The notes under the pieces were generated by a model. It had not been told where the DNA came from, ran no database searches, and worked only from the letters and a program-made list of their open reading frames with translations. Below are positions 13,179-25,950 of a stretch of 52,299 nucleotides of DNA, piece by piece. The stretch is from Patescibacteria group bacterium. Its GTDB lineage: Bacteria > Patescibacteriota > Patescibacteriia > Patescibacteriales > WJLG01. The position numbers and the translations under genes were made by a program. The stretch is from assembly GCA_028716485.1 (NCBI GenBank), contig JAQUPS010000011.1, forward strand, positions 1-52,299. Direction: 5' to 3'. Numbering within the stretch: position 1 is the first letter of the stretch; each line of letters begins with the position of its first letter.

Positions 13179-13348
13179 AAATTCAGGCAGAGGCGGTAGG
13201 TGCGGGCCGAGGAGTCATTTCCTCGGGCTCAAGGTTCGATTCCTTGGGCTTCTGCGAAATGTGGGGGGTGGGCTTTTGCCGAAGTATATGCCCTCTACGT
13301 TTTTTCCGGAGGAGCGCGTTATCTCAACGCCTCCTCCCTTTTATTTTT
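13179..13348 (+). ncRNA. Candidate tRNA-like small RNA
   Basis: A 170-nt unit with promoter and terminator but no ORF. Residues 13187-13255 fold as a reduced tRNA: an 8-bp acceptor GCAGAGGC (13187-13194) with GCTTCTGC (13248-13255), a T arm CAAGG-TTCGATT-CCTTG (13230-13246), and a single hairpin CCGAGGA-GTCATT-TCCTCGG (13207-13226) where D and anticodon arms should be. The span between acceptor and T arm is about eight bases too short for a normal tRNA. A G-rich segment that can pair with GCCCTCTAC follows, then the terminator. It resembles in design the tRNA-mimicking part of bacterial Y RNAs; this is an analogy only. Confidence 0.55.
13308..13348 (+). terminator. Terminator of the tRNA-like RNA
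   Basis: GGAGGAG...GCGTT pairs with AACGC-CTCCTCC around ATCTC and is followed by TTTTATTTTT. The hairpin overlaps the antisense 3' end of lgt, whose stop is at 13319-13321. Confidence 0.85.
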
Positions 13349-14134
13349 GGGAAAGAATAAAATGATGAGCGAAATGATTATTATCGCCAGGCTGATCACT
13401 TGCGGCCAGCGGTAGCCGAAAAAATAAGCGGTCGTGTCGGTGCGCAAGAACTCCGTGGAAAATCTTAAGGCCGAGTATAAAACAAGATAAGTCAAGATGA
13501 CGATTTTATAATTGGTTGATTTCTTTTTAAGGAATTGCCTGACGATCAAGATTAAAATAATGAATATCATCAGGTCGCCAAGCGATTCATAAAGAAAAGT
13601 CGGGTGAAAATAATTCGAGGATAAATAACGATCAGGTCGGCTCATAAAATCAATCGGGATCCCCCAGGGCAGATTGGTCGGCCTGCCGAAAAGTTCCTGG
13701 TTAAAATAATTTCCCCAGCGGCCGATCGCCTGGCCCAATACGACTCCGGGCGCGAAGATCGCCGCGATCAGCCAAAAATTAACTTTTTCTTTCCAGCAAA
13801 AATAAATCACCACCAATAATCCGCCGATTAAAGCGCCGTGAATCGCCAATCCGCCCTGCCAAACTTTTAAAATACTCCAATAATTCTGGCTGTAATAACT
13901 CCATTCCAGCAAGACGTGATAAATCCGGGCGCCGACAATGCCGGCAATAATCATCCAAAAAGACAAGTCAAAAATCTTGTTCGGCGATAAGCCGAATTTT
14001 TTGGCCAGCTTGAGCGAGACGGTCAGGGCGGCGAGGACTCCCAGAACGATAAACAAGCCATACCAATAGACGCGCAATGAGCCAAAGGAAATGAGGATGG
14101 GCGTGGGCGAAAAAGTATGTAGGAAATTGAACAT
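13319..14134 (-). CDS. lgt: Prolipoprotein diacylglyceryl transferase
   Basis: Integral membrane enzyme that attaches diacylglycerol to the lipobox cysteine of prolipoproteins. About seven membrane helices are visible. The family motifs are all there: YGLFIVLGVLAA near the start, ARIYHVLLEW, GGLAIHGALIGG, GQAIGRWGNYFNQE with the key arginine, and HPTFLYES. The length of 271 aa is normal. It begins at ATG 14134 without an SD. The lipoprotein cassettes at 18-23 kb would be substrates. Its last codons lie antisense to the small-RNA terminator. Confidence 0.96.
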   Translation of the reverse strand: MFNFLHTFSPTPILISFGSLRVYWYGLFIVLGVLAALTVSLKLAKKFGLSPNKIFDLSFWMIIAGIVGARIYHVLLEWSYYSQNYWSILKVWQGGLAIHGALIGGLLVVIYFCWKEKVNFWLIAAIFAPGVVLGQAIGRWGNYFNQELFGRPTNLPWGIPIDFMSRPDRYLSSNYFHPTFLYESLGDLMIFIILILIVRQFLKKKSTNYKIVILTYLVLYSALRFSTEFLRTDTTAYFFGYRWPQVISLAIIIISLIILFFPKNKREEALR

Positions 14135-16851: not shown

Positions 16852-17940
16852 TTAATTTGATATTTTTTTTATCAAATTTTTCCCCAAGCTTATCCCCGGT
16901 TTTTCTATCAATTCATACGAAATCGCGGAAATCGCTATAACAATAATCAACGCTCCGAAAATTCCCGCCATTCTTGTGCCGATATTTTGATTAAAAAATG
17001 TTAAATTAGGGTTTATAATTGATTTGGCCAATAATGTTAACACCATATAATGCGTTAAATACATTGAGTAGCTTATTTTTCCAACAAATCTGGTCGCTTG
17101 GTTATTTAAAAGACGGGCTAGCGGAAAATCGTAGCGCGTTAAAAGAACAAGCAGGGATAGCGGCAAAGCCATGAGCGCCGCAGCATAAGCCGGCAGAGCC
17201 GATATTAAAAATATTGAAAAAATACAAACGCACCAGCCGCTGATTAGCGCCTTATGATTATATTGCTTATTCTCTTTAAATAAAAAAAACAGGATAATTC
17301 CAAAGGTAAAATAAAAATAATTGCTTAATATGAAAAACGTTGACCATTCGTGCATCAAAGCATCGCCGGGAAAAAAGAATGAAATAAGCTTTTTAAAAAC
17401 AAAGGCTATCAGAATGGAAATTACGGCCAGCTTAACGGCCCCTTTCTTGTTTTTGATATGCCTGAATAATAATGGCAAAGAAAGATAAAAACAAACCTCG
17501 CAGAAAATTGACCACTCAACTCCGACAACGCTGTCTATCCAATATTTATTGAAACCAAAAAGAAACAGAAAATGAGACACTATATTGCTTATGGTAATTC
17601 CTTGGACCGGCAATCTATTTCCCACTCCCCCTACATACAGCCACGAAACAATTACAGCGGCATAAAACAGCGGAGCAATCCGAAAAAAACGGCGCAAGAA
17701 AAATTTAAGGGATGCTTTGCTCTCTGAGGCGAATCTTTGAGATGAGCTTAAAAATAAAGTTAAAGCGCTCAAAATATAAAACAGCTTAACTCCGTAAACG
17801 CCAAAACCAAAACCTTTTCCGTTAAAAAGATCCACCAGCAACGGCAGATGGACGGACAGAACCAATAAAGCCGCCACCCCTCTTAATCCGTCCAGATATT
17901 TGTAATGCTCTATCGCAATCTCCGGTTTGCCGCTATCCAT
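16852..17940 (-). CDS. Acyltransferase 3 family membrane protein
   Basis: Integral membrane O-acyltransferase family that acetylates or acylates surface sugars. The signature YLDGLRGVAALLVLSVHLPLL near residue 14 contains the catalytic-type His. Ten or so membrane helices follow, with RRFFRIAPLFYAAV, VVGVEWSIFCEVCFYLSLP and the late GKISYSMYLTHYMVLTLL segment, all in the family order. Length is 362 aa. A likely job is modification of a cell-surface polymer. Codon composition is more AT-rich than the neighbouring housekeeping genes, which hints at acquisition. Confidence 0.88.
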   Translation of the reverse strand: MDSGKPEIAIEHYKYLDGLRGVAALLVLSVHLPLLVDLFNGKGFGFGVYGVKLFYILSALTLFLSSSQRFASESKASLKFFLRRFFRIAPLFYAAVIVSWLYVGGVGNRLPVQGITISNIVSHFLFLFGFNKYWIDSVVGVEWSIFCEVCFYLSLPLLFRHIKNKKGAVKLAVISILIAFVFKKLISFFFPGDALMHEWSTFFILSNYFYFTFGIILFFLFKENKQYNHKALISGWCVCIFSIFLISALPAYAAALMALPLSLLVLLTRYDFPLARLLNNQATRFVGKISYSMYLTHYMVLTLLAKSIINPNLTFFNQNIGTRMAGIFGALIIVIAISAISYELIEKPGISLGKNLIKKISN

Positions 17941-18092
17941 AGATTATCAATTTAATTTTAGGCTTTATTTAAAAATATCACAAAATTATTAAAGGAGCAA
18001 AAGTATAAGCGCCCGGGCGGCTTGATCGCAGCTGGGAATCGGCGCAAAAGCCGCCTCGCTCGCAACCAGTTCGATTCCCAAACTAGAGGATG

Positions 18093-18135
18093 ACTAATTT
18101 AAAAACTCGGCGAAAGGCCGAGTTTTTAAATTAGT
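18093..18135. terminator. 19-bp perfect hairpin before cassette 1
   Basis: ACTAATTTAAAAACTCGGC, a GAAAG loop, then the exact complement. A- and T-runs lie inside the stem, so it can terminate in both directions. Identical copies occur at 22111-22153 and 24052-24094. Confidence 0.8.
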
Positions 18136-18259
18136 AGACTACTGTATTGAGAATTTACACCCCATAATCCAGGATATTCGAAAGTGGAAGTTGCTTGCGC
18201 CAGTAAAATTTTAGGCTGAAATTATTGAAAAATTTGAAGAATATCGTTTTTTTTTGCTA

Positions 18260-18301
18260 CCCTGTTAATAGTTAACAATAAATCGTATAATCTTAACAGG
18301 G
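18260..18301 (+). promoter_or_regulatory. Operator-promoter of cassette 1
   Basis: CCCTGTTAA (18260-18268) and TTAACAGGG (18293-18301) form a 9-bp inverted repeat that encloses a second palindrome, GTTAA-TAG-TTAAC, and a consensus -10, TATAAT (18286-18291). The layout is that of a repressor site covering the promoter. The same site occurs at 19880-19921 and 22278-22319. Confidence 0.7.
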
Positions 18302-18310
18302 AGAAGAAAA

Positions 18311-18325
18311 ATGGATTTGAGTTAG
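18311..18325 (+). other. Four-codon upstream ORF (MDLS), cassette 1
   Basis: ATG-GAT-TTG-AGT-TAG sits 9 nt after a GGGAG motif in the leader. Cassette 3 has the same ORF at 22329-22343; cassette 2 has a different one (MKANTS, 19930-19950) after the same GGGAG. It may be a leader ORF that couples translation to downstream folding. Confidence 0.4.
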
Positions 18326-18418
18326 GTGTTGATTTATTTGTTCTTTTAGTATCGTCCTTTTTAAAATTGATTACTATTGTCAGAAAACTAAACTATCTAA
18401 ACCAAAGGAGGATTAGCT

Positions 18419-19048
18419 ATGAAAACTAATCTATTTCTGTCTCTTGTTTTGGCGGTTGCTATTTTCGGATGCGGAAACGGCAATTATTCTGTAAATAGCA
18501 GCAAGGAATCATTGTCGAAAACCGAAGCTGTTGCAAGTGTTTCTGGCTGCACGATAACGCCAGCTATGCAGGCTTGGAATGCTTTGTCACAATCGGCGAA
18601 GGATTTAAAGCTTTTTAGTGTCGCGTTATATGATAACGGGAAGAATTTTTGCGCGGCTGACATTGAATGTAAGCAGTGGGTGTCGAATGTTGTTTTTGTG
18701 GCAAGCGGAATAAGACTTCCCGCCAATACAAATGGCGATCGTTCTTGGGGTTCATATCCTTGCCCAAACATTGTAAGTAGGGGTTCAATTTCCCCCGCAA
18801 GCGTTAACGGTATGGATATTATACAAATGTGGTGGAGATGTCCTAAAAAAGGTGGAGGATACTCAACTGGACCGCACACGGCCATTGTAATAAGTAAAGA
18901 TGCTACCAGCATGCAATGGATAGATTGCAATTATCTTGGCTGTTGTTTAGTTGGTATACATACGGTAACTTTTGCCAACTTTTCTGCATACACAGGGCCT
19001 AATTCAGGAGCTCCTGGGACGGGATATACTGTCTATCACATTCAGTGA
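18419..19048 (+). CDS. Lipoprotein with CHAP/NlpC-like Cys-His-Asn core, cassette 1
   Basis: A 209-residue secreted protein. The signal MKTNLFLSLVLAVAIFGC ends in a lipobox-like cysteine (Cys18), so it is probably lipid-anchored by Lgt. The mature part shows ECKQWV (Cys84), MDIIQMWW, GPHTAIVIS (His153) and WIDCNY (Asn171). That order, Cys near a helix, then a D-I/V strand, a G-H strand and a W-x-N strand, is the CHAP/NlpC-P60 papain-like layout of peptidoglycan amidases and endopeptidases; I infer the fold from motifs only. Several extra cysteines could form disulfides. A strong AAAGGAGG precedes the ATG. Paralogues are at 20036 and 22437. Confidence 0.75.
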   Translation: MKTNLFLSLVLAVAIFGCGNGNYSVNSSKESLSKTEAVASVSGCTITPAMQAWNALSQSAKDLKLFSVALYDNGKNFCAADIECKQWVSNVVFVASGIRLPANTNGDRSWGSYPCPNIVSRGSISPASVNGMDIIQMWWRCPKKGGGYSTGPHTAIVISKDATSMQWIDCNYLGCCLVGIHTVTFANFSAYTGPNSGAPGTGYTVYHIQ

Positions 19049-19067
19049 TAAAAGTAGTCAATCATTT

Positions 19068-19108
19068 TTGGTGCGACGTTTAATCCATAAACGCTGCACC
19101 AATTTTTA
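19068..19108 (+). other. Intercistronic hairpin, cassette 1
   Basis: TTGGTGC...CGTTTA pairs with TAAACG..GCACCAA and is followed by TTTTTAAA, between the lipoprotein and its partner. It may be a partial terminator or mRNA-stability element that sets the ratio of the two products. Cassettes 2 and 3 have hairpins at the same place with different sequence. Confidence 0.6.
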
Positions 19109-19139
19109 AAATTTAAAATAAATTAATATAGCTCTTAGT

Positions 19140-19691
19140 ATGAAAAAAATTTATATTTTAGCGGTGGTTGTAGTTATCTTAGCCTCACTTGGTTTTATTA
19201 CAAGGGGCTACTTAATAGAAAGAAAATTACGCCAAGAAATTTCGATTTGTCAATTATCAAGCAAGCAAGTTGTTTGTGATTGTCCAAATTGCAAGACGGG
19301 TGATGGAAAAGCGGCCAGTAGCACCGGAGTTTATTTTAATGAGAAGTATCATTATTCAATCAACTACTTTTCATATCTTAATGTTGATGATTTCAATCAG
19401 GAATCTGTTTCTTTTAGGGAGCCTAATGGTGGGCCGTGGGATATTGATGTTTCAGTTAATCCTGGAATTAGCGTTGAACAATATTTAAAAAATTCAGGCA
19501 CTAAAATAGAAAAAAAATTGGTTGTTAATGGCAATGAAATGACGATAGTTTCTCATATGGGTTCTGATAAAAACGAAAATGAGAGATTTGCGGTGGTCGA
19601 GAAGCAAGGAGTGTTATTTATTATTGCAGTAGCTTATCCTGAAATTAGCGATCAGATATTTAGCAGTTTTAAATTTTTAGCCAATCTGTAA
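19140..19691 (+). CDS. Membrane-anchored partner protein, cassette 1
   Basis: A 183-residue protein with an N-terminal membrane helix (residues 4-25) and an outside domain. After a cysteine cluster (CQLSSKQVVCDCPNC, about 37-51) that the other two partners lack, it has YHYSINYFSYLNVDD and a beta-rich region ending SDQIFSSFKFLANL. The layout (anchor, linker, Y-x-Y/F-x-I core, final helix with F-K-F) matches the partners of cassettes 2 and 3, which look PsbP-like. Function is unknown; as second gene of the cassette it could be an inhibitor, chaperone or receptor for the lipoprotein. Confidence 0.75.
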   Translation: MKKIYILAVVVVILASLGFITRGYLIERKLRQEISICQLSSKQVVCDCPNCKTGDGKAASSTGVYFNEKYHYSINYFSYLNVDDFNQESVSFREPNGGPWDIDVSVNPGISVEQYLKNSGTKIEKKLVVNGNEMTIVSHMGSDKNENERFAVVEKQGVLFIIAVAYPEISDQIFSSFKFLANL

Positions 19692-19718
19692 TTATAATTT
19701 TTATAGTCTGGTCAAAAA

Positions 19719-19750
19719 TAAAATACTCGGCAAATTGCCGAGTATTTTTA
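19719..19750. terminator. Terminator of cassette 1
   Basis: ATACTCGGC-AAAT-TGCCGAGTAT type hairpin followed by TTTTTA, 30 bp after the partner gene. Confidence 0.85.
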
Positions 19751-19753
19751 TCC

Positions 19754-20035
19754 GTAGACCACTGTATTGAGAATTTACACCCCATAATCCAAGATATTCG
19801 AAAGTAGAAGTTGCTTGCGCCAGCAAAATTTTAGGCTGAAATTATTGAGAAATTTGACGAATATCGTTTTTTTTTGCTACCCTGTTAATAGTTAACAATA
19901 AATCGTATAATCTTAACAGGGAGATTGAGATGAAAGCGAATACCAGTTGATTTCCGTTCTTTTGCGCTTGTTCTTTTCAAAATTGATTACTATTGTCAGA
20001 AAACCAAAATATTTTAAACCAAAGGAGAATTGGTT
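19754..20035 (+). repeat. Leader repeat of cassette 2
   Basis: From GTAGACCACTGTATTGAG to the SD this copies the cassette 1 leader (18134-18418) with scattered changes; the section after the operator is the most diverged. Confidence 0.85.
19880..19921 (+). promoter_or_regulatory. Operator-promoter of cassette 2
   Basis: The 42-bp CCCTGTTAA-N24-TTAACAGGG site with internal GTTAA-TAG-TTAAC and TATAAT (19906-19911) is identical to cassette 1 although flanking leader bases differ, which argues for selection on the site. Confidence 0.7.
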
Positions 20036-20728
20036 ATGAAAACCAATCTATTTCTGTCCATCGCCTTGTCGGCTGCTATTTTCGGATGTGGAAATAGCAA
20101 TTATTCCTTGAATAGCAACAAACAATCATCGGAACCGTTGGCCAAAACCGCAGTTGCGGCAGTTGCCACCACTTGCACAATAACGCCAACCATACAGGCT
20201 TGGAATGCCTTGTCGCAAACACAAAAAAACACGAAGATTTTGGCCGTTGCGCAAACTATGAATGGTTGTAATTACAGCCGATATATTCCGCCTGTGGAAT
20301 GTAAGCCGTGGGTGCAATCATATGTTGTTTTACCGGCCAGCGGTCTTACAATCGGATCAAATACTTCGGGCAATCCCAACTATTTTTCCTGGAACAGTGC
20401 CACTTGCTTCAACAACCAGATCGTGAAGCTTTATAGTAATTCTTCGTCGCTTCCCTGGGTTGTTCCTGGCCAAATAATTCAAATGTGGTGGACGCCGAGG
20501 TTAGCCAGCGGATCCTTGGGCGCCCCAGGTCCGCATACCGCCATTGTTGTAAGTAATACGAGCGGCTATATAGATGACACTAAAAATTATATGATATGGA
20601 TTGATTGTAATTTTAGTCCGAAGTATACGGTGAGTGTTCATAAAGTGACCTACGCGGACTTCAAATTATTTACCACTGCCACGGTGAATTATCCCCAATT
20701 AGGTTTCTCCGTTTATCAGATTCAATGA
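20036..20728 (+). CDS. Lipoprotein with CHAP/NlpC-like core, cassette 2
   Basis: A 230-residue paralogue. The start is the ATG at 20036, 8 nt after AAAGGAGA; an upstream TTG adds nothing. The signal ends AAIFGC (Cys18). The motif set is kept: ECKPWV (Cys89), GQIIQMWW, GPHTAIVVS (His167), IWIDCNF (Asn192), then HKVTYADF and a C-terminal GFSVYQIQ. It is about 21 residues longer than copies 1 and 3, with insertions around residues 110-165. The divergence is greatest between the Cys and His motifs, where substrate-contacting loops would lie in this fold. Confidence 0.75.
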   Translation: MKTNLFLSIALSAAIFGCGNSNYSLNSNKQSSEPLAKTAVAAVATTCTITPTIQAWNALSQTQKNTKILAVAQTMNGCNYSRYIPPVECKPWVQSYVVLPASGLTIGSNTSGNPNYFSWNSATCFNNQIVKLYSNSSSLPWVVPGQIIQMWWTPRLASGSLGAPGPHTAIVVSNTSGYIDDTKNYMIWIDCNFSPKYTVSVHKVTYADFKLFTTATVNYPQLGFSVYQIQ

Positions 20729-20746
20729 CAATGGTAATTAATTAGC

Positions 20747-20785
20747 TGGAATGGTGTTTAGCAATAAATACCATTCCAATTTTTT
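20747..20785 (+). other. Intercistronic hairpin, cassette 2
   Basis: TGGAATGGT (20747-20755) pairs exactly with ACCATTCCA (20770-20778), followed by ATTTTTT. Same place as in the other cassettes, different sequence. Confidence 0.65.
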
Positions 20786-20810
20786 AAATTTAAATAATTT
20801 TAATATTTAT

Positions 20811-21488
20811 ATGAAGAAAAAAACAATCTTAATCTGGCTGGTAGTTATTTTGCTTATCGTAATCGGTGTAGTTGTTTTAAAAGAGCATCAATCAAAAAAA
20901 AGTTATCAAAAAATTGGAATAAATCAGGTCAATAAAATTGCTTCTTCGAGCCCTCTAATTAACAATCAGGATAATGTTGCTAGCAGTTCAAATTCGGAGA
21001 CGACAGCGTCTTCGTCTTCAAATTTAGTATATCCGACCTTTGCTGAAATAAATTCCGTAAAAATCAACAATAATAATTGGCAGACTTATAAGGATAAAAA
21101 ATACGGTTTTGAAATCAGCGCTCCAGCGGGATGGAGTTTTAGCGGGAAACTTGATCTTTTAAATGGCACTGAGTTGTTGATAATGCCAAATAGCGACGGA
21201 AAATTTAACGCCCCTACAGCCATTGGCATTCTTTATGACACTTCATCGCCGAAAGTTTGGCTTGAAAAATATCATCAGGAAGCGAAAGATAAACCCGAGC
21301 AAATAATGGAAATAAACATTCCTACGAGTGATGGAGCCTTTGTCGGCTTGTCTCACGGAATTTATGGTGCTTACATCAGGAAGGGTAACGAAATTTTCGC
21401 TTTTGGTGCCATAGATTTGACCAGTAACTTACTTGATCAGTATGCGATGATGAAGGCAATAATTGAAACTTTCAGGTTTACAAAATAG
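20811..21488 (+). CDS. Membrane-anchored PsbP-like partner, cassette 2
   Basis: A 225-residue protein starting MKKKTILIWLVVILL; the upstream in-frame ATG at 20751 lies inside the hairpin and is rejected. One membrane helix (5-24), a Ser/Asn-rich linker (about 45-80), then WQTYKDKKYGFEISAPAGWSF, the typical opening of a PsbP-like alpha/beta domain, and the end DQYAMMKAIIETFRFTK. It shares the IPTSDGAF segment and C-terminus with the cassette 3 partner. No cysteine cluster. Probably sits on the outer face of the membrane. Confidence 0.75.
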   Translation: MKKKTILIWLVVILLIVIGVVVLKEHQSKKSYQKIGINQVNKIASSSPLINNQDNVASSSNSETTASSSSNLVYPTFAEINSVKINNNNWQTYKDKKYGFEISAPAGWSFSGKLDLLNGTELLIMPNSDGKFNAPTAIGILYDTSSPKVWLEKYHQEAKDKPEQIMEINIPTSDGAFVGLSHGIYGAYIRKGNEIFAFGAIDLTSNLLDQYAMMKAIIETFRFTK

Positions 21489-21502
21489 TTGACGAAAGCG
21501 TA

Positions 21503-21536
21503 AAAAAAGACCGGCAAAATGTCAGTCTTTTTTTAT
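21503..21536. terminator. Terminator of cassette 2
   Basis: AAAAAAAGAC-CGGCAAAATGTCA-GTCTTTTTTT with a short stem and long T-run. Confidence 0.75.
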
Positions 21537-21541
21537 ATCCA

Positions 21542-21600
21542 TAGACCACTGTATTGAGAATTTACACCCCATTATCCAAGATATTCGGAAATGGAAGCAA
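21542..21600 (+). repeat. Truncated cassette leader
   Basis: TAGACCACTGTATTGAGAAT and the following ~40 bp match the start of the other leaders and then stop, just before a minus-strand gene. It marks a lost or interrupted cassette. Confidence 0.8.
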
Positions 21601-21610
21601 CTCTTATTTA

Positions 21611-21865
21611 TTAAATGTTAGATTTTTTTGTTTCCAAAAAGACTTTTTTGTTATACTTTACAACAATCCAAGAAAAAACAATCCAAGCAATAATTGCTAT
21701 TAAGTCGATATAATTTTTTGAAAAAGAATGCGTCATTTGAAATCTTGAAAAATCGGTAAAAATATCGTGAAAATACTCATAGGCGATAAAAAATACGCCT
21801 AAGCTAAAAATTAAATAAATAAAATCCACAACAGTGACGATTGCTTTTGATTTAATGTTGTTCAT
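21611..21865 (-). CDS. Small two-helix membrane protein
   Basis: The 84-residue product MNNIKSKAIVTVVDFIYLIF... has two membrane helices (about 9-30 and 52-72) and a lysine-rich end. It is inverted relative to the cassettes and interrupts a truncated leader, so it may have arrived by insertion. No SD and no recognised family. Confidence 0.5.
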   Translation of the reverse strand: MNNIKSKAIVTVVDFIYLIFSLGVFFIAYEYFHDIFTDFSRFQMTHSFSKNYIDLIAIIAWIVFSWIVVKYNKKVFLETKKSNI

Positions 21866-21950
21866 ATTTTTTGCGTTAATTTTTTAAAAAATAGAGGCAA
21901 GAAGTGCTCTTGCCTCTATATAATACAACAGATGGTGGAAAATGTTAGTA

Positions 21951-22091
21951 GTCGCAGTCGCTCGGCGGCGGAAACCGCCTCACTCCTTTGTCCTGGGTTG
22001 CCGCCAAACGCTCCCGTTGGTCGCGTCTGGCGTCGCTCGACTGCCGTTCGATCGTTCCCTCGCGAACGTTGTCTCGCTCGCAACCAGTTCG
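21951..22091. repeat. 141-bp GC-rich repeat, copy 1
   Basis: Far more GC-rich than its surroundings, with a GGCGG-AAA-CCGCC hairpin and many CGCTCG words. It matches 23892-24032 with two differences. The end (CGCTCGCAACCAGTTCG) is also seen at about 18058-18073. It ends in a T-arm-like GTTCG. No ORF or tRNA fold could be made from it. The rest of the 21866-22436 gap is leader sequence. Confidence 0.85.
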
Positions 22092-22106
22092 GCTCCCGCG
22101 ATAGAA

Positions 22107-22645
22107 GATGACTAATTTAAAAACTCGGCGAAAGGCCGAGTTTTTAAATTAGTAGACTACTGTATTGAGAATTTACACCCCATAATCCAGGATATTCGAA
22201 AGTGGAAGTTGCTTGCGCCAGTAAAATTTTAGGCTGAAATTATTGAAAAATTTGAAGAATATCGTTTTTTTTTGCTACCCTGTTAATAGTTAACAATAAA
22301 TCGTATAATCTTAACAGGGAGAAGAAAAATGGATTTGAGTTAGGTGTTGATTTATTTGTTCTTTTAGTATCGTCCTTTTTAAAATTGATTACTATTGTCA
22401 GAAAACTAAACTATCTAAACCAAAGGAGGATTAGCTATGAAAACTAATCTATTTCTGTCTCTTGTTTTGGCGGTTGCTATTTTCGGATGCGGAAACGGCA
22501 ATTATTCTGTAAATAGCAGCAAGGAATCATTGTCGAAAACCGAAGCTGTTGCAAGTGTTTCTGGCTGCACGATAACGCCAGCTATGCAGGCTTGGAATGC
22601 TTTGTCACAATCGGCGAAGGATTTAAAGCTTTTTAGTGTCGCGTT
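22107..22645. repeat. 539-bp exact direct repeat, copy B
   Basis: Identical to 18089-18627 (see there). It includes the terminator hairpin 22111-22153 and the first 209 nt of the cassette 3 gene. Confidence 0.9.
22278..22319 (+). promoter_or_regulatory. Operator-promoter of cassette 3
   Basis: Same 42-bp nested palindrome as in cassettes 1 and 2, with TATAAT at 22304-22309. The upstream ORF MDLS is at 22329-22343. Confidence 0.7.
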
Positions 22646-23066
22646 GTATGATGACGGCAAAGATTTTAGCGCGAGCAAATTGCAATGCAAGCCATGGGTT
22701 CAAAAAGTTGTTTTTGCCGCCAGCGGCATAACGGTTCCTGGCACCCAATCAGGTGATTGCAGTTGGGGCAATGATCCTTGCGGTAATATCATTAGCCGCG
22801 GTTCAGCTGCGCCTTCAGACATAAACAGTATGGATATTATACAGATGCGCTGGAGATGTCGGTTGTCTATCGGGGGATATGAAACCGGGCCGCATACAGC
22901 CATCGTTATAAGCAAGGATGCTACCAGCATGAAATGGATCTATTGCAATTATGTAAAAGCCTATACAGTAGGTATGCATACTATAACTTTTGCCGACTTT
23001 GCCAAATTTACTGGTCCAAACTCTGGCGCCAGCGGCACTGGATATACCGTCTACCATGTTCGGTGA
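22437..23066 (+). CDS. Lipoprotein with CHAP/NlpC-like core, cassette 3
   Basis: A 209-residue paralogue whose first 69 residues are encoded by DNA identical to cassette 1, after which the two diverge. Cys18 is the lipobox residue. Core motifs are QCKPWV (Cys84), MDIIQMRW, GPHTAIVIS (His153) and WIYCNY (Asn171). The Asp before the Cys-Asn in the other two copies is Tyr here, which leaves Asn171 as the more likely third catalytic residue. The mixed pattern suggests gene conversion of the 5' half or a swap of the 3' half. Strong SD AAAGGAGG. Confidence 0.75.
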   Translation: MKTNLFLSLVLAVAIFGCGNGNYSVNSSKESLSKTEAVASVSGCTITPAMQAWNALSQSAKDLKLFSVALYDDGKDFSASKLQCKPWVQKVVFAASGITVPGTQSGDCSWGNDPCGNIISRGSAAPSDINSMDIIQMRWRCRLSIGGYETGPHTAIVISKDATSMKWIYCNYVKAYTVGMHTITFADFAKFTGPNSGASGTGYTVYHVR

Positions 23067-23084
23067 CAAAAGTAATCAATCATT

Positions 23085-23128
23085 TTTGGCGCGGCGTTTA
23101 ATTATTTAACGCTGCGCCAAACTTTTAA
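23085..23128 (+). other. Intercistronic hairpin, cassette 3
   Basis: TTGGCGC..CGTTTAA pairs with TTAACG..GCGCCAA, followed by ACTTTTAAA. It is related to the cassette 1 hairpin, with changes on both arms that mostly keep pairing. Confidence 0.65.
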
Positions 23129-23158
23129 ATTTATAGAAAATTAAAATAATTTTATTTT

Positions 23159-23809
23159 ATGAAGAAAACAGCATTTTTAATCTTTATCAGTCTATTGATT
23201 TTAGCGAGCCTGTTTGTCTACAAAGAGCGCCAGCCAAAAAATATTCCCCAAAAAAATGAATTAATTCAAAAAATTGAAGAAAAAAGCAGCTCGTCCGCCG
23301 CAACCGCCCTAACTTCAGAGCTAACTGGTATAGTCCATCCAAGCTTTTCAGAGATAGATGCTGTTGCAATAGATAAAAGCAATTGGCAAATTTACGAAAA
23401 TAAACAGTATGGTTTTAAAATTAGCGCGCCAAAAACTTGGTCAATAATTCTTTCTGCCGATGACGGATCATTGGAGAATGGCGGGCAGCTAATGATAAGA
23501 CCCACTAATGATAACGATCCTCTTAACTCTCCAGTGGCTTTGCAAGTGCAAATTGATAATTCTTCAGCAAGAGACTGGTTGCTAAAAGCTGTCGAGCAAG
23601 CCGCAACTGACCATGAAAAATTTATAGAAATAAGCATTCCTACAAGCGATGGAGCGTTTGCCGAAACATCGGTTATGGGACTTTATGGTTATAACATTAA
23701 AAAGGGGGATAAGGTTTTTGGTTTTGGCGCTATGGATGTATTAAGTGATATAAAAAATCAAGACGCGATGATGAAAGCGATAGTAGAAACCTTAAGATTT
23801 ACGAAATAG
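23159..23809 (+). CDS. Membrane-anchored PsbP-like partner, cassette 3
   Basis: A 216-residue protein: membrane helix (4-20), charged and Ser-rich linker, then WQIYENKQYGFKISAPKTWSI (PsbP-like opening), IPTSDGAFAETS and the end QDAMMKAIVETLRFTK. It aligns closely with the cassette 2 partner over the outer domain. The separate evolution of partner and lipoprotein (partner 3 is closest to partner 2, lipoprotein 3 closest to lipoprotein 1) shows reassortment between cassettes. Confidence 0.75.
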   Translation: MKKTAFLIFISLLILASLFVYKERQPKNIPQKNELIQKIEEKSSSSAATALTSELTGIVHPSFSEIDAVAIDKSNWQIYENKQYGFKISAPKTWSIILSADDGSLENGGQLMIRPTNDNDPLNSPVALQVQIDNSSARDWLLKAVEQAATDHEKFIEISIPTSDGAFAETSVMGLYGYNIKKGDKVFGFGAMDVLSDIKNQDAMMKAIVETLRFTK

Positions 23810-23844
23810 TTTGAGAAAATTTAGAGCATTTCTATAAAAAAATA

Positions 23845-23867
23845 TTGACTTTTTAGTCAGTTTTTTT
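23845..23867 (+). terminator. Terminator of cassette 3
   Basis: TTGACT-TTTT-AGTCAG followed by T7. Confidence 0.75.
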
Positions 23868-23873
23868 ATATTA

Positions 23874-23891
23874 GTAGTCCCTATGGGAGTC
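23874..23891 (-). pseudogene. tRNA 3'-end remnant
   Basis: TAGTCCCTATGGGAGTCG matches, with one gap, the 3' acceptor and T-arm part of the tRNA-Glu at 26533-26604 read in the same orientation. Only this fragment is present; the GC-rich repeat begins immediately after. Confidence 0.45.
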
Positions 23892-24032
23892 GTCGCAGTC
23901 GCTCGGTGGCGGAAACCGCCTCACTCCTTTGTCCTGGGTTGCCGCCAAACGCTCCCGTTGGTCGCGTCTGGCGTCGCTCGACTGCCGTTCGCTCGTTCCC
24001 TCGCGAACGTTGTCTCGCTCGCAACCAGTTCG
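23892..24032. repeat. 141-bp GC-rich repeat, copy 2
   Basis: Two mismatches against 21951-22091. With the following terminator and leader start, the shared block runs to about 24128, 1941 bp from copy 1. Confidence 0.85.
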
Positions 24033-24051
24033 ACTCCTAAACTAGAGGATG

Positions 24052-24128
24052 ACTAATTTAAAAACTCGGCGAAAGGCCGAGTTTTTAAATTAGTAGACTA
24101 CTGTATTGAGAATTTACACCCTATAATA
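24052..24128. repeat. Third terminator hairpin and truncated leader
   Basis: The 19-bp hairpin (24052-24094) is followed by GTAGACTACTGTATTGAGAA and then breaks off after CCCTATAAT, where unrelated sequence leading to the radical SAM operon starts. It is the right boundary of the array. Confidence 0.8.
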
Positions 24129-24256: not shown

Positions 24257-25168
24257 ATGTATGCAATTTGGAATTTAACCAATGTTTGTCCGTGGAATTG
24301 TTCTTTTTGTTGTATGTCGGCAGTTGGAAGCAAAAACATAACTCACCAAACCAAATTATTGAATTTTGATGAAAAAATGGATGTTTTAAGAATTTTAGCT
24401 TCCAATAATGTAAAAATTGATTTTTCAGGAGGAGATCCTCTTTTTTATTCTGATGATTTTTCTATTGTCGAGGAGGCGACAAAGCTTTTGCCAAAGGAAA
24501 TGATTGACGTTAGCATGACCGGCGTTGATTTTACTCAGAGGAAGCTCTCACTCGTTAAAAAAGTTGGTAAGGTTGAGGTGAGTATTGATAATCCGCCGGG
24601 CACGCTAAACAAATTTCGACCAGCAGGATTCAATATTTCTGCAATAGCAGTTCTTGAAAAAATGGCCAAAGAGGGAATTTTTTGCTCAGGAGTAACAACC
24701 CTTTATCCGGAAACAGTGAAGAAAGAAAATTTGTTGGCGGTTTATGAGTTGCTGTGCGAAAAAAAGGTTCCCAAGTGGAACATTCTGCGTTATTATCTTG
24801 TTGGCAGAGGTTCTAATTTATCGGAATTGGAGCTTTCGGAAGAAGAACTTTTAAGAACGATGGATTTTCTGGATTCCTTTAAAGGTTTTACTGAGATAGC
24901 TTTCCAGCACTCACTCAGGATTTTGAGAGGCCAATATCGGTGTCATGCGGCGAATAAATCCATTGGCATATTGCCAGACGGAATAGTTATTGCTTGCGGT
25001 TGGGCGTTAGATGGGAATAGCCGTCCGCTACGCGGGTTTAAATTGGGGAAATTGCCCCAGGACGATTTTGGCGGTATCATAGAAAGAGCTAAAAACAAAC
25101 TTGGCTATGGTGAGTGCAAAAATGTTTGTCGAATAATATCTTATTTAAAGGAGAATACGCCAGTATGA
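24257..25168 (+). CDS. Radical SAM protein
   Basis: A 303-residue radical SAM enzyme. The [4Fe-4S] motif CPWNCSFC (CxxxCxxC) is at residues 11-18, followed by a FSGGDP motif near residue 57 that binds the methionine amino group. The C-terminal part has CHAANKSIGILPDGIVIACGW and a final GECKNVC, so an additional cluster of the SPASM/twitch type is possible. The substrate is not evident. GGGAGG precedes the ATG. It overlaps the next gene by ATGA and starts just after the cassette array, which raises the possibility of a role in modifying the cassette products. Confidence 0.85.
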   Translation: MYAIWNLTNVCPWNCSFCCMSAVGSKNITHQTKLLNFDEKMDVLRILASNNVKIDFSGGDPLFYSDDFSIVEEATKLLPKEMIDVSMTGVDFTQRKLSLVKKVGKVEVSIDNPPGTLNKFRPAGFNISAIAVLEKMAKEGIFCSGVTTLYPETVKKENLLAVYELLCEKKVPKWNILRYYLVGRGSNLSELELSEEELLRTMDFLDSFKGFTEIAFQHSLRILRGQYRCHAANKSIGILPDGIVIACGWALDGNSRPLRGFKLGKLPQDDFGGIIERAKNKLGYGECKNVCRIISYLKENTPV

Positions 25169-25950
25169 TAATAAAAGAAGTGCAATGCAAAAGTATTTTG
25201 ACTAAAAGTAATTTACCGGAAGTTGAATACTGCATAAATCCTTATATCGGGTGCACGCATAATTGTGTTTATTGTTACGCGTCTTTCATGAAGCGTTTTA
25301 CTGGTCACACCGATGAGGACTGGGGTGATTTTCTTGACGTGAGAGTTAATTCTGTTGAAGTTCTTAAAAAGCAGATTACTTCAAAAAAGAAGAGGGGAGA
25401 CATTTTGATTGGGAGCGTAACTGATTCATATCAACCAATCGAAAATAAATATCGCCTCACTCGTCAAATACTTGAGGTTTTGGGTGGAAAAGGATTTCCC
25501 GTTTCAGTTTTGACTAAGTCGGATTTGGTAGTTAGAGACATTGATGTTCTTAAAAAAATTGAGGATTGCGAGGTTGGTTTAACCATTACATCTCTCGGCG
25601 AGGGTATTTCAAGGATTTTTGAGCCAGGAGCGTCCATCCCCTTAAAGAGGGTTAACGCTCTAAGGGTTTTGAAAGAAAACGGAATACGAACCTATGCGTT
25701 CATTGGCCCTATGCTTCCCGGGATAACACAGATAGAAGAAATTGTTAAAGCCTTGGAAGGTAAAGTTGATTTTGTAATGTTTGAGACGTTAAATCTTAAC
25801 AAAGTTAATCGGGAAAGGACATTGAAAGCTTTTCTAAAGGCTGGCGTTGCCTTTTCACCAAACTCAATTAATTGGGGAGAGGTGGAGAAAAAAGCAAGAA
25901 GAATTTGCGGTGAATATGGGATTCCTGTCAAAGGTTTTTACAAACACTAA
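25165..25950 (+). CDS. SPL-type radical SAM protein
   Basis: A 261-residue protein with YCINPYIGCTHNCVYCYASFMKR near residue 26, the cluster motif of the SplB/Rv2578c-type group (COG1533-like), then GSVTDSYQPIE, VLTKSDLVVRD and the late AFIGPMLPG strand of the TIM-like barrel. The ATG at 25165 overlaps the previous stop (ATGA) and has AAAGGAGA upstream, so translation is coupled; a more distal in-frame ATG at 25114 is rejected. Members of this group include spore photoproduct lyase-like repair enzymes but many are uncharacterised. The specific reaction here is unknown. Confidence 0.85.
   Translation: MIIKEVQCKSILTKSNLPEVEYCINPYIGCTHNCVYCYASFMKRFTGHTDEDWGDFLDVRVNSVEVLKKQITSKKKRGDILIGSVTDSYQPIENKYRLTRQILEVLGGKGFPVSVLTKSDLVVRDIDVLKKIEDCEVGLTITSLGEGISRIFEPGASIPLKRVNALRVLKENGIRTYAFIGPMLPGITQIEEIVKALEGKVDFVMFETLNLNKVNRERTLKAFLKAGVAFSPNSINWGEVEKKARRICGEYGIPVKGFYKH

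Follow-up and report, generated by a model that had tools for sequence, protein, structure and literature searches.

The stretch of DNA analyzed here (hereafter the window) comprises 52,299 nucleotides and represents one contig (C11, JAQUPS010000011.1) of the 1.15-Mb genome of a Patescibacteria group bacterium, assembled in 28 contigs. Between an acyltransferase gene (16852-17940, minus strand) and a radical-SAM gene (24257-25168, plus strand), three cassettes follow one another, each consisting of a lipoprotein gene (A) and the gene of a membrane-anchored partner (B), labeled A1-B1, A2-B2, and A3-B3 (Table 1). This arrangement had been proposed in an earlier reading of the same DNA (the original prediction), and the gene coordinates confirm it, with all six genes on the plus strand; the two truncated leaders and the hairpins between A and B that it described were also found. 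Contig C1 carries three further A genes (A4-A6), each time with a B gene next on the same strand, bringing the conserved order and linkage to 6/6 pairs in the home genome. Since three more linked pairs lie on C1, the promoter block described below stands only before A genes, and relatives of A occur elsewhere in the class, the cassettes are not a product of chance. The gene for Lgt, which the original prediction had also placed in the window, lies at 13319-14134 (PF01790, 1.6e-74), and LspA is encoded in the genome.

Predicted fold and catalytic residues of the A proteins

All six A proteins begin with a short hydrophobic stretch ending in Cys, as in a lipoprotein signal, and those of the window match no Pfam or NCBIfam model. 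Alignment to relatives found in other genomes shows Cys, Lys, Gln, His, Thr, and Tyr kept in 19/19 sequences and Asn in 18/19. Structures were predicted with AlphaFold2 (AF2) from small alignments of window proteins and related loci (six rows for A3 and eight for B3), and the catalytic part of A3 gave a model with a predicted local distance difference test score (pLDDT) of 78 and a predicted template modeling score (pTM) of 0.77, in which Cys sits at a helix N-terminus and His and Asn lie on neighboring strands, Asn at the strand end. In a Foldseek search of the PDB, the top ten matches of this model were all CHAP or endolysin proteins (best E 1.4e-3, probability 1.00), and endolysins and CHAP proteins likewise ranked first in a viral structure library (best 2e-4); a weak resemblance to the amidase effector Tae2 was also seen. 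The model thus supports a papain-like fold of the CHAP type, as had been anticipated, like that of the endolysins LysGH15, LysK, and Ly7917, nearly all top matches being CHAP or endolysin proteins. A profile match between A and the endolysin Lys2972 (9e-4) was lost once the alignment was enlarged, and no weight is placed on it.

The catalytic residues first proposed, Cys84, His153, and Asn171, are correctly numbered for A1 and A3, while their counterparts in A2 are Cys89, His167, and Asn192. The third position calls for revision. In LysK, Cys54 lies in a helix, His117 in a strand, and Glu134 in the next strand, followed by Asn136-Trp137, and the Glu134Ala mutation strongly reduces activity without abolishing it (PMC4126393). 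The A proteins carry the motif [DEYH]-x-N-[YFW] 16-18 residues after His (17-19 in LysK), and because this matches the LysK layout, residue 169, Asp in A1 and Tyr in A3, is the better candidate for the acidic third position, with Asn171 corresponding to LysK Asn136. By analogy with the loss of activity in Glu134Ala, A3 may be the weaker enzyme, as it has Tyr where the acidic residue of CHAP endolysins stands. The A proteins resemble these endolysins in predicted fold, in the Cys at the helix N-terminus, in the His on a strand, and in the [D/E]-x-N-[W/Y/F] motif after it, and differ from them in being bacterial lipoproteins rather than phage lysins, in lacking a Pfam CHAP match, and in sharing just ~11-15% identity. 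The A proteins very probably cut peptidoglycan. One relative of A, in genome G043 (L013:5081-6205), carries PG_binding_1 (9.4e-8) and a TSP1-like Cys-Trp stretch before its catalytic part; a pilin-like gene adjoins it, and no B.

Predicted fold of the B proteins

Each B protein has an outer domain behind a single N-terminal membrane helix. The AF2 model of B3 (pLDDT 82) matched PsbP structures best (4e-5), in line with the PsbP-like partner originally predicted, followed by BT_1490 (3hlz), Tsi3, and the chaperones EagT6 and SciW; its 15 matches at E <= 0.001 are nearly all PsbP or PsbP-like, the rest being BT_1490. At the sequence level, Pfam PsbP_2 scores stay under the cut-off for B3 (E 0.04) and B6 (3e-5) and pass it for the partner in genome G161 (1e-8). 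The match of the B3 model to Tsi3, the immunity protein of a peptidoglycan-cutting effector of the type VI secretion system (T6SS), reached 3.7e-3 with a probability of 1.00. It has been reported that the best DALI neighbor of Tsi3 is 3hlz and that Tsi3 also resembles MOG1p and PsbP (PMC3792639), and both 3hlz and PsbP are among the top matches of B3. Because PsbP, Tsi3, and the EagT6 and SciW chaperones share this fold, the modeled fold alone allows B to be an immunity protein, a chaperone, or another kind of binding protein, the original prediction having named an inhibitor, a receptor, or a chaperone.

Linkage of A and B in other genomes

A profile search showed A to be patchily distributed, in 13 genomes besides the source among ~380 of the class and in 4 of ~110 other genomes of the order; outside the class a single weak match was obtained, and the one same-genus genome tested has no A. 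Single-protein scans of genome contigs returned no relatives, and neither did a scan of viral contigs; nothing here thus points to a phage origin. Linkage of the two gene families beyond the home genome, on which the original prediction had staked its pairing, was borne out: the sequence downstream could be read for 16 distant A genes, and the next gene encodes a membrane- or lipid-anchored outer protein in 12 and a PsbP-like one in at least four. Profile alignment or PsbP_2 supports kinship to PsbP for the neighbors in G086, G061, G082, and G368 and, in G161, for the second gene after A; this kinship is weak for the G100 neighbor and not significant for some others. PsbP_2 genes adjoin A or stand one gene away four times, against 0.06 expected (~70x, P ~5e-7). 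The protein next to A is larger in G119 and G161, and that of G119 is propeller-like, with a weak WD40-like match.

Exchange of the 5′ module

A1 and A3 are identical over ~540 bp (18090-18630), a stretch that takes in the leader, the signal peptide, and almost the whole of the first 70 codons, with one synonymous change. Past this block the two genes diverge to a synonymous divergence (dS) of 1.4 and a nonsynonymous divergence (dN) of 0.28, and B1 and B3 are just 27% identical. The original prediction spoke of a diversifying set, which holds for the exchange of modules and not for selection, as dN is well below dS in every comparison.

The same kind of sharing extends to unrelated enzymes. 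In G161, the promoter and signal region of a CHAP-like A gene agrees at 285/317 nt with that of an M23 peptidase gene (PF01551), the two genes being unrelated thereafter, and a second pair of A and M23 genes in G100 shares 193/222 nt in the same manner, the A-type 5′ block thus being 87-90% identical DNA. Known members of the M23 family cut peptidoglycan peptides, and in both genomes the M23 gene is followed by a PsbP-like gene. As read from these sequences, one launch module serves two unrelated, presumably wall-cutting domains, and this is the strongest new evidence in the present analysis.

Cassette 3 itself is enclosed by 245-nt direct repeats (21942-22186 and 23883-24127, 95% identity). 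Such repeats and the orphan leader fragments are as expected if cassettes were gained and lost by recombination. The GC-rich repeat within them has a third copy at C13:26684-26832, and one copy lies close to tRNA-Gly, tRNA-Leu, and tmRNA genes; the copies in the window contain no tRNA genes. This element is possibly a site of recombination, or else a small mobile repeat.

Promoters, leaders, and hairpins

Searching the 1.15 Mb at <=3 mismatches gave six occurrences of the promoter block TTTGANGAATNNCG-T9-GCTA, all of them before A genes, and none in the control. Because counts of consensus promoters were at chance level, the promoter assignment rests on this conserved block and on a related leader on contig C7 (C7:61244-61359), which has a clear TTGACA-18-TATAAT form and precedes another operon. 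A Shine-Dalgarno sequence stands before 15/18 A genes and 0/18 B genes, B being counted as the next anchored gene (P = 3e-7). The start regions of 25 genes of the window show that most other genes also lack it, A being the exception, and the AT-rich, TATAAT-like regions upstream of these genes suggest many leaderless mRNAs. A hairpin separates A from B in 12/16 pairs with unrelated sequences, and -10-like boxes lie close upstream of B starts in 7/18 cases (3.1 expected, P 0.012). Taken from sequence, it is likeliest that A and B form two separate transcription units. Separate expression of B would fit a guard already in place by the time A is induced, yet it fits other roles as well.

The tiny upstream open reading frame (ORF) of 4-6 codons, originally regarded as part of every cassette, precedes all three A genes of the window, is missing at two A genes of C1, and stands before an unrelated operon. 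Each such ORF has its own ribosome-binding site (MDLS* and MKANTS* in the window, MDSS* at A4, MNSS* at the C7 operon). They may encode regulatory leader peptides. The C7 operon (L069:133-1409) encodes a secreted Cys-His protein with NCHSYAW and GDHSG motifs, possibly a papain-like enzyme, which has no match in Pfam or NCBIfam. A scan against Rfam returned tRNAs only, the leaders and hairpins belonging to no known RNA family.

Table 1. Features of the cassette region, by position in the window
Feature	Position	Strand	Remarks
19-bp hairpin, head of leader 1	18093-18135		identical copies at 22111-22153 and 24052-24094
Promoter block of A1, TTTGAAGAATATCG-T9-GCTA	18233-18259	+	pattern search and alignment
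Operator-like inverted repeat, CCCTGTTAA...TTAACAGGG	18260-18301		overlaps promoter; present at A1-A4, absent at A5 and A6
Tiny upstream ORF MDLS*	18311-18325	+	
A1, lipoprotein, predicted CHAP-type cell-wall hydrolase	18419-19048	+	Cys84/His153/Asp169/Asn171
Hairpin between A1 and B1	19068-19102	+	
B1, membrane-anchored PsbP-like partner	19140-19691	+	divergent from B2-B4
Promoter block of A2	19853-19879	+	
Operator-like inverted repeat, leader 2	19880-19921		
Tiny upstream ORF MKANTS*	19930-19950	+	
A2, lipoprotein, predicted CHAP-type hydrolase	20036-20728	+	Cys89/His167/Asn192
Hairpin between A2 and B2	20747-20778	+	
B2, membrane-anchored PsbP-like partner	20811-21488	+	
Leader fragment without cassette	21530-21597	+	
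GC-rich repeat preceding cassette 3	21942-22110	+	second copy at 23883-24051
Promoter block of A3	22251-22277	+	
Operator-like inverted repeat, leader 3	22278-22319		
Tiny upstream ORF MDLS*	22329-22343	+	
A3, lipoprotein, predicted CHAP-type hydrolase	22437-23066	+	Cys84/His153/Tyr169/Asn171; 5′ part identical to A1
Hairpin between A3 and B3	23086-23120	+	
B3, membrane-anchored partner, predicted PsbP fold	23159-23809	+	AF2 pLDDT 82
GC-rich repeat copy 2 and truncated leader	23883-24127	+	leader fragment 24049-24127; direct repeat with 21942-22186

Two further observations concern the surroundings. A small membrane protein ORF on the minus strand (21611-21865) lies between cassettes 2 and 3, directly behind the leader fragment, and the two adjoining genes at 24257-25950 likely encode iron-sulfur enzymes, the first having a Radical_SAM match and a Shine-Dalgarno sequence.

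A model of the cassettes and its alternatives

These data can be assembled into a model of modular wall-hydrolase cassettes, to which we give an even chance. A would hydrolyze peptidoglycan as a CHAP-type enzyme whose lipid anchor holds it to the outer side of the cytoplasmic membrane. A promoter of its own and a strong ribosome-binding site would drive it, with a hairpin at the end of the gene. B would be a PsbP-fold protein held in the same compartment by one N-terminal helix, and its expression is most likely separate, starting at a short leaderless promoter. Promoter, ribosome-binding site, and lipoprotein signal make up the 5′ launch module of A, which has been recombined with different putative wall-cutting domains, namely the diverged CHAP-like halves and, in two other genomes, M23. 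B most likely binds A and keeps the wall of the producer from damage; the role of an immunity protein or inhibitor, restraining A or protecting against it, is the likeliest one for B, with confidence that could tip either way. A would work where the producer touches a host or competitor cell, and the case for the wall of another cell as its target is evenly poised. Gene pairing, anchoring signals, predicted folds, conserved catalytic residues, purifying selection, and module exchange come from the sequences and structure models themselves, whereas wall cleavage, binding of A by B, protection, and the target are inferred.

Several observations weigh against this model. The CHAP model PF05257 matches no A protein of the window and reaches at best 0.006 among the 19 relatives, in 2/19, and the Foldseek E-values of the A model are just ~1e-3 in the PDB. 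The PsbP fold serves chaperones and many other roles, B is missing at four distant A genes (G012 twice, G043, and G046), and PsbP proteins resembling B often occur in the order where A is absent (17/60 genomes). Selection is purifying everywhere, with no arms-race signal. Divergence of A and B is correlated when pair 1 is left out (r 0.83, P 0.017), and simple mirror-tree support for co-evolution fails with all six pairs (r 0.28, P 0.09). Finally, Pfam found no secretion or trafficking domain (PAAR, WXG, RHS, etc.) in the A proteins, which have a lipoprotein signal only, and the lipid anchor keeps A on the producer; together these argue for action at contact range or for self-remodeling.

Self-remodeling, in which A cuts the peptidoglycan of the producer itself as the cell grows or divides or as a pilus passes through, with B regulating or localizing A, would accord with such retention and with purifying selection, as well as with the PG_binding_1 domain of one relative and the weak A-like domain inside a large membrane protein of G598. 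Yet A is absent from ~96% of the class genomes and from the one same-genus genome tested, and a set of six copies with exchangeable launch modules and exchanged partners does not resemble housekeeping enzymes; we consider this alternative rather unlikely.

A further possibility is that an epibiont opens the wall of its host for attachment or uptake, with B as an assembly factor, an EagR-like chaperone, or an adhesin rather than an immunity protein. EagT6 and SciW do share the fold of B, whereas EagR chaperones are cytoplasmic and B is predicted to be anchored outside, and no injection apparatus gene lies within the cassettes. PsbP/MOG1 proteins adjoining toxins have been proposed as adaptors (PMC3482391), and dependence on host bacteria is considered widespread among Patescibacteria (PMC12102498). 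B resembles proteins of the PsbP/MOG1 fold, EagR chaperones included, in its modeled fold and differs from them in its N-terminal membrane anchor and its pairing with wall hydrolases. The host-opening reading strikes us as distinctly unlikely.

It is also quite improbable that the papain-like fold serves another chemistry, as an amidase or protease acting on proteins or as a transpeptidase: the A proteins of the window lack a CHAP or NlpC/P60 Pfam match and the fold yields other enzymes too, phytochelatin synthase being among the weaker matches, yet wall lysins make up nearly all the top ones and the same launch module carries M23 domains. An assembly artefact, by which repeat misassembly in a metagenome bin (540 bp at 100% with an abrupt edge) would have made fewer cassettes look like more, is extremely improbable given that the catalytic halves of A1 and A3 differ at saturation, B1 and B3 share so little identity, cassettes 2, 4, 5, and 6 are independent, and two other genomes show similar module sharing.

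Relation to known systems

Returning to the model of hydrolase and guard, a comparable pair is Tse3-Tsi3 of the T6SS, where the enzyme gene is likewise followed by the partner gene, the products act in the same compartment, and the partner resembles the B model. The cassettes differ in that A is lipid-anchored, Tse3 being a muramidase and not CHAP-like, and neutralization by B is putative; no link to a T6SS was seen, although no search for T6SS genes was made. A second parallel is offered by polymorphic toxin systems, in which a constant 5′ module with exchangeable catalytic domains is followed by a variable partner. A constant N-terminal module with an exchanged, putatively toxic C-terminal domain is found in G161, G100, and A1/A3, and an adjacent partner gene in 6/6 home pairs and, as an anchored next protein, in 12/16 elsewhere. 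Unlike in those systems, the constant part is very short (promoter, signal peptide, and ~40 residues), with no trafficking domains or repeats.

Among published ideas, the patescibacterial VanZ-2 operon comes nearest, where interchangeable papain-like and glycyl-glycine peptidases are swapped behind one shared N-terminal region (PMC12419801), a plan shared with the launch module of A. That operon comprises VanZ-2, an ABC transporter, Lamin-tail proteins, and a coiled-coil anchor, in place of the lipoprotein signal and PsbP partner seen here. Literature joining Patescibacteria with the CHAP domain and peptidoglycan, or with a PsbP partner of wall enzymes, was not found in a search that left most subscription papers outside its reach. 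What is new, as read from the DNA, is the A-type promoter-signal block joined to M23 in two genomes and the 5′ block shared by A1 and A3 with diverged halves. Whether the whole constitutes an undescribed polymorphic-toxin-like system of Patescibacteria, combining a launch module, CHAP-like or M23 domains, PsbP-fold immunity, and leaderless expression in a contact-dependent attack on host or rival walls, we would put forward tentatively, as possible and somewhat short of an even chance.

The cassettes provide concrete proteins for studying how Patescibacteria get through or deal with the walls of the cells on which they depend. Their gene arrangement, which recurs in several lineages of one class, predicts enzymes that cut walls, each with its own guard, and they would add a candidate immunity family with the PsbP fold outside the T6SS.

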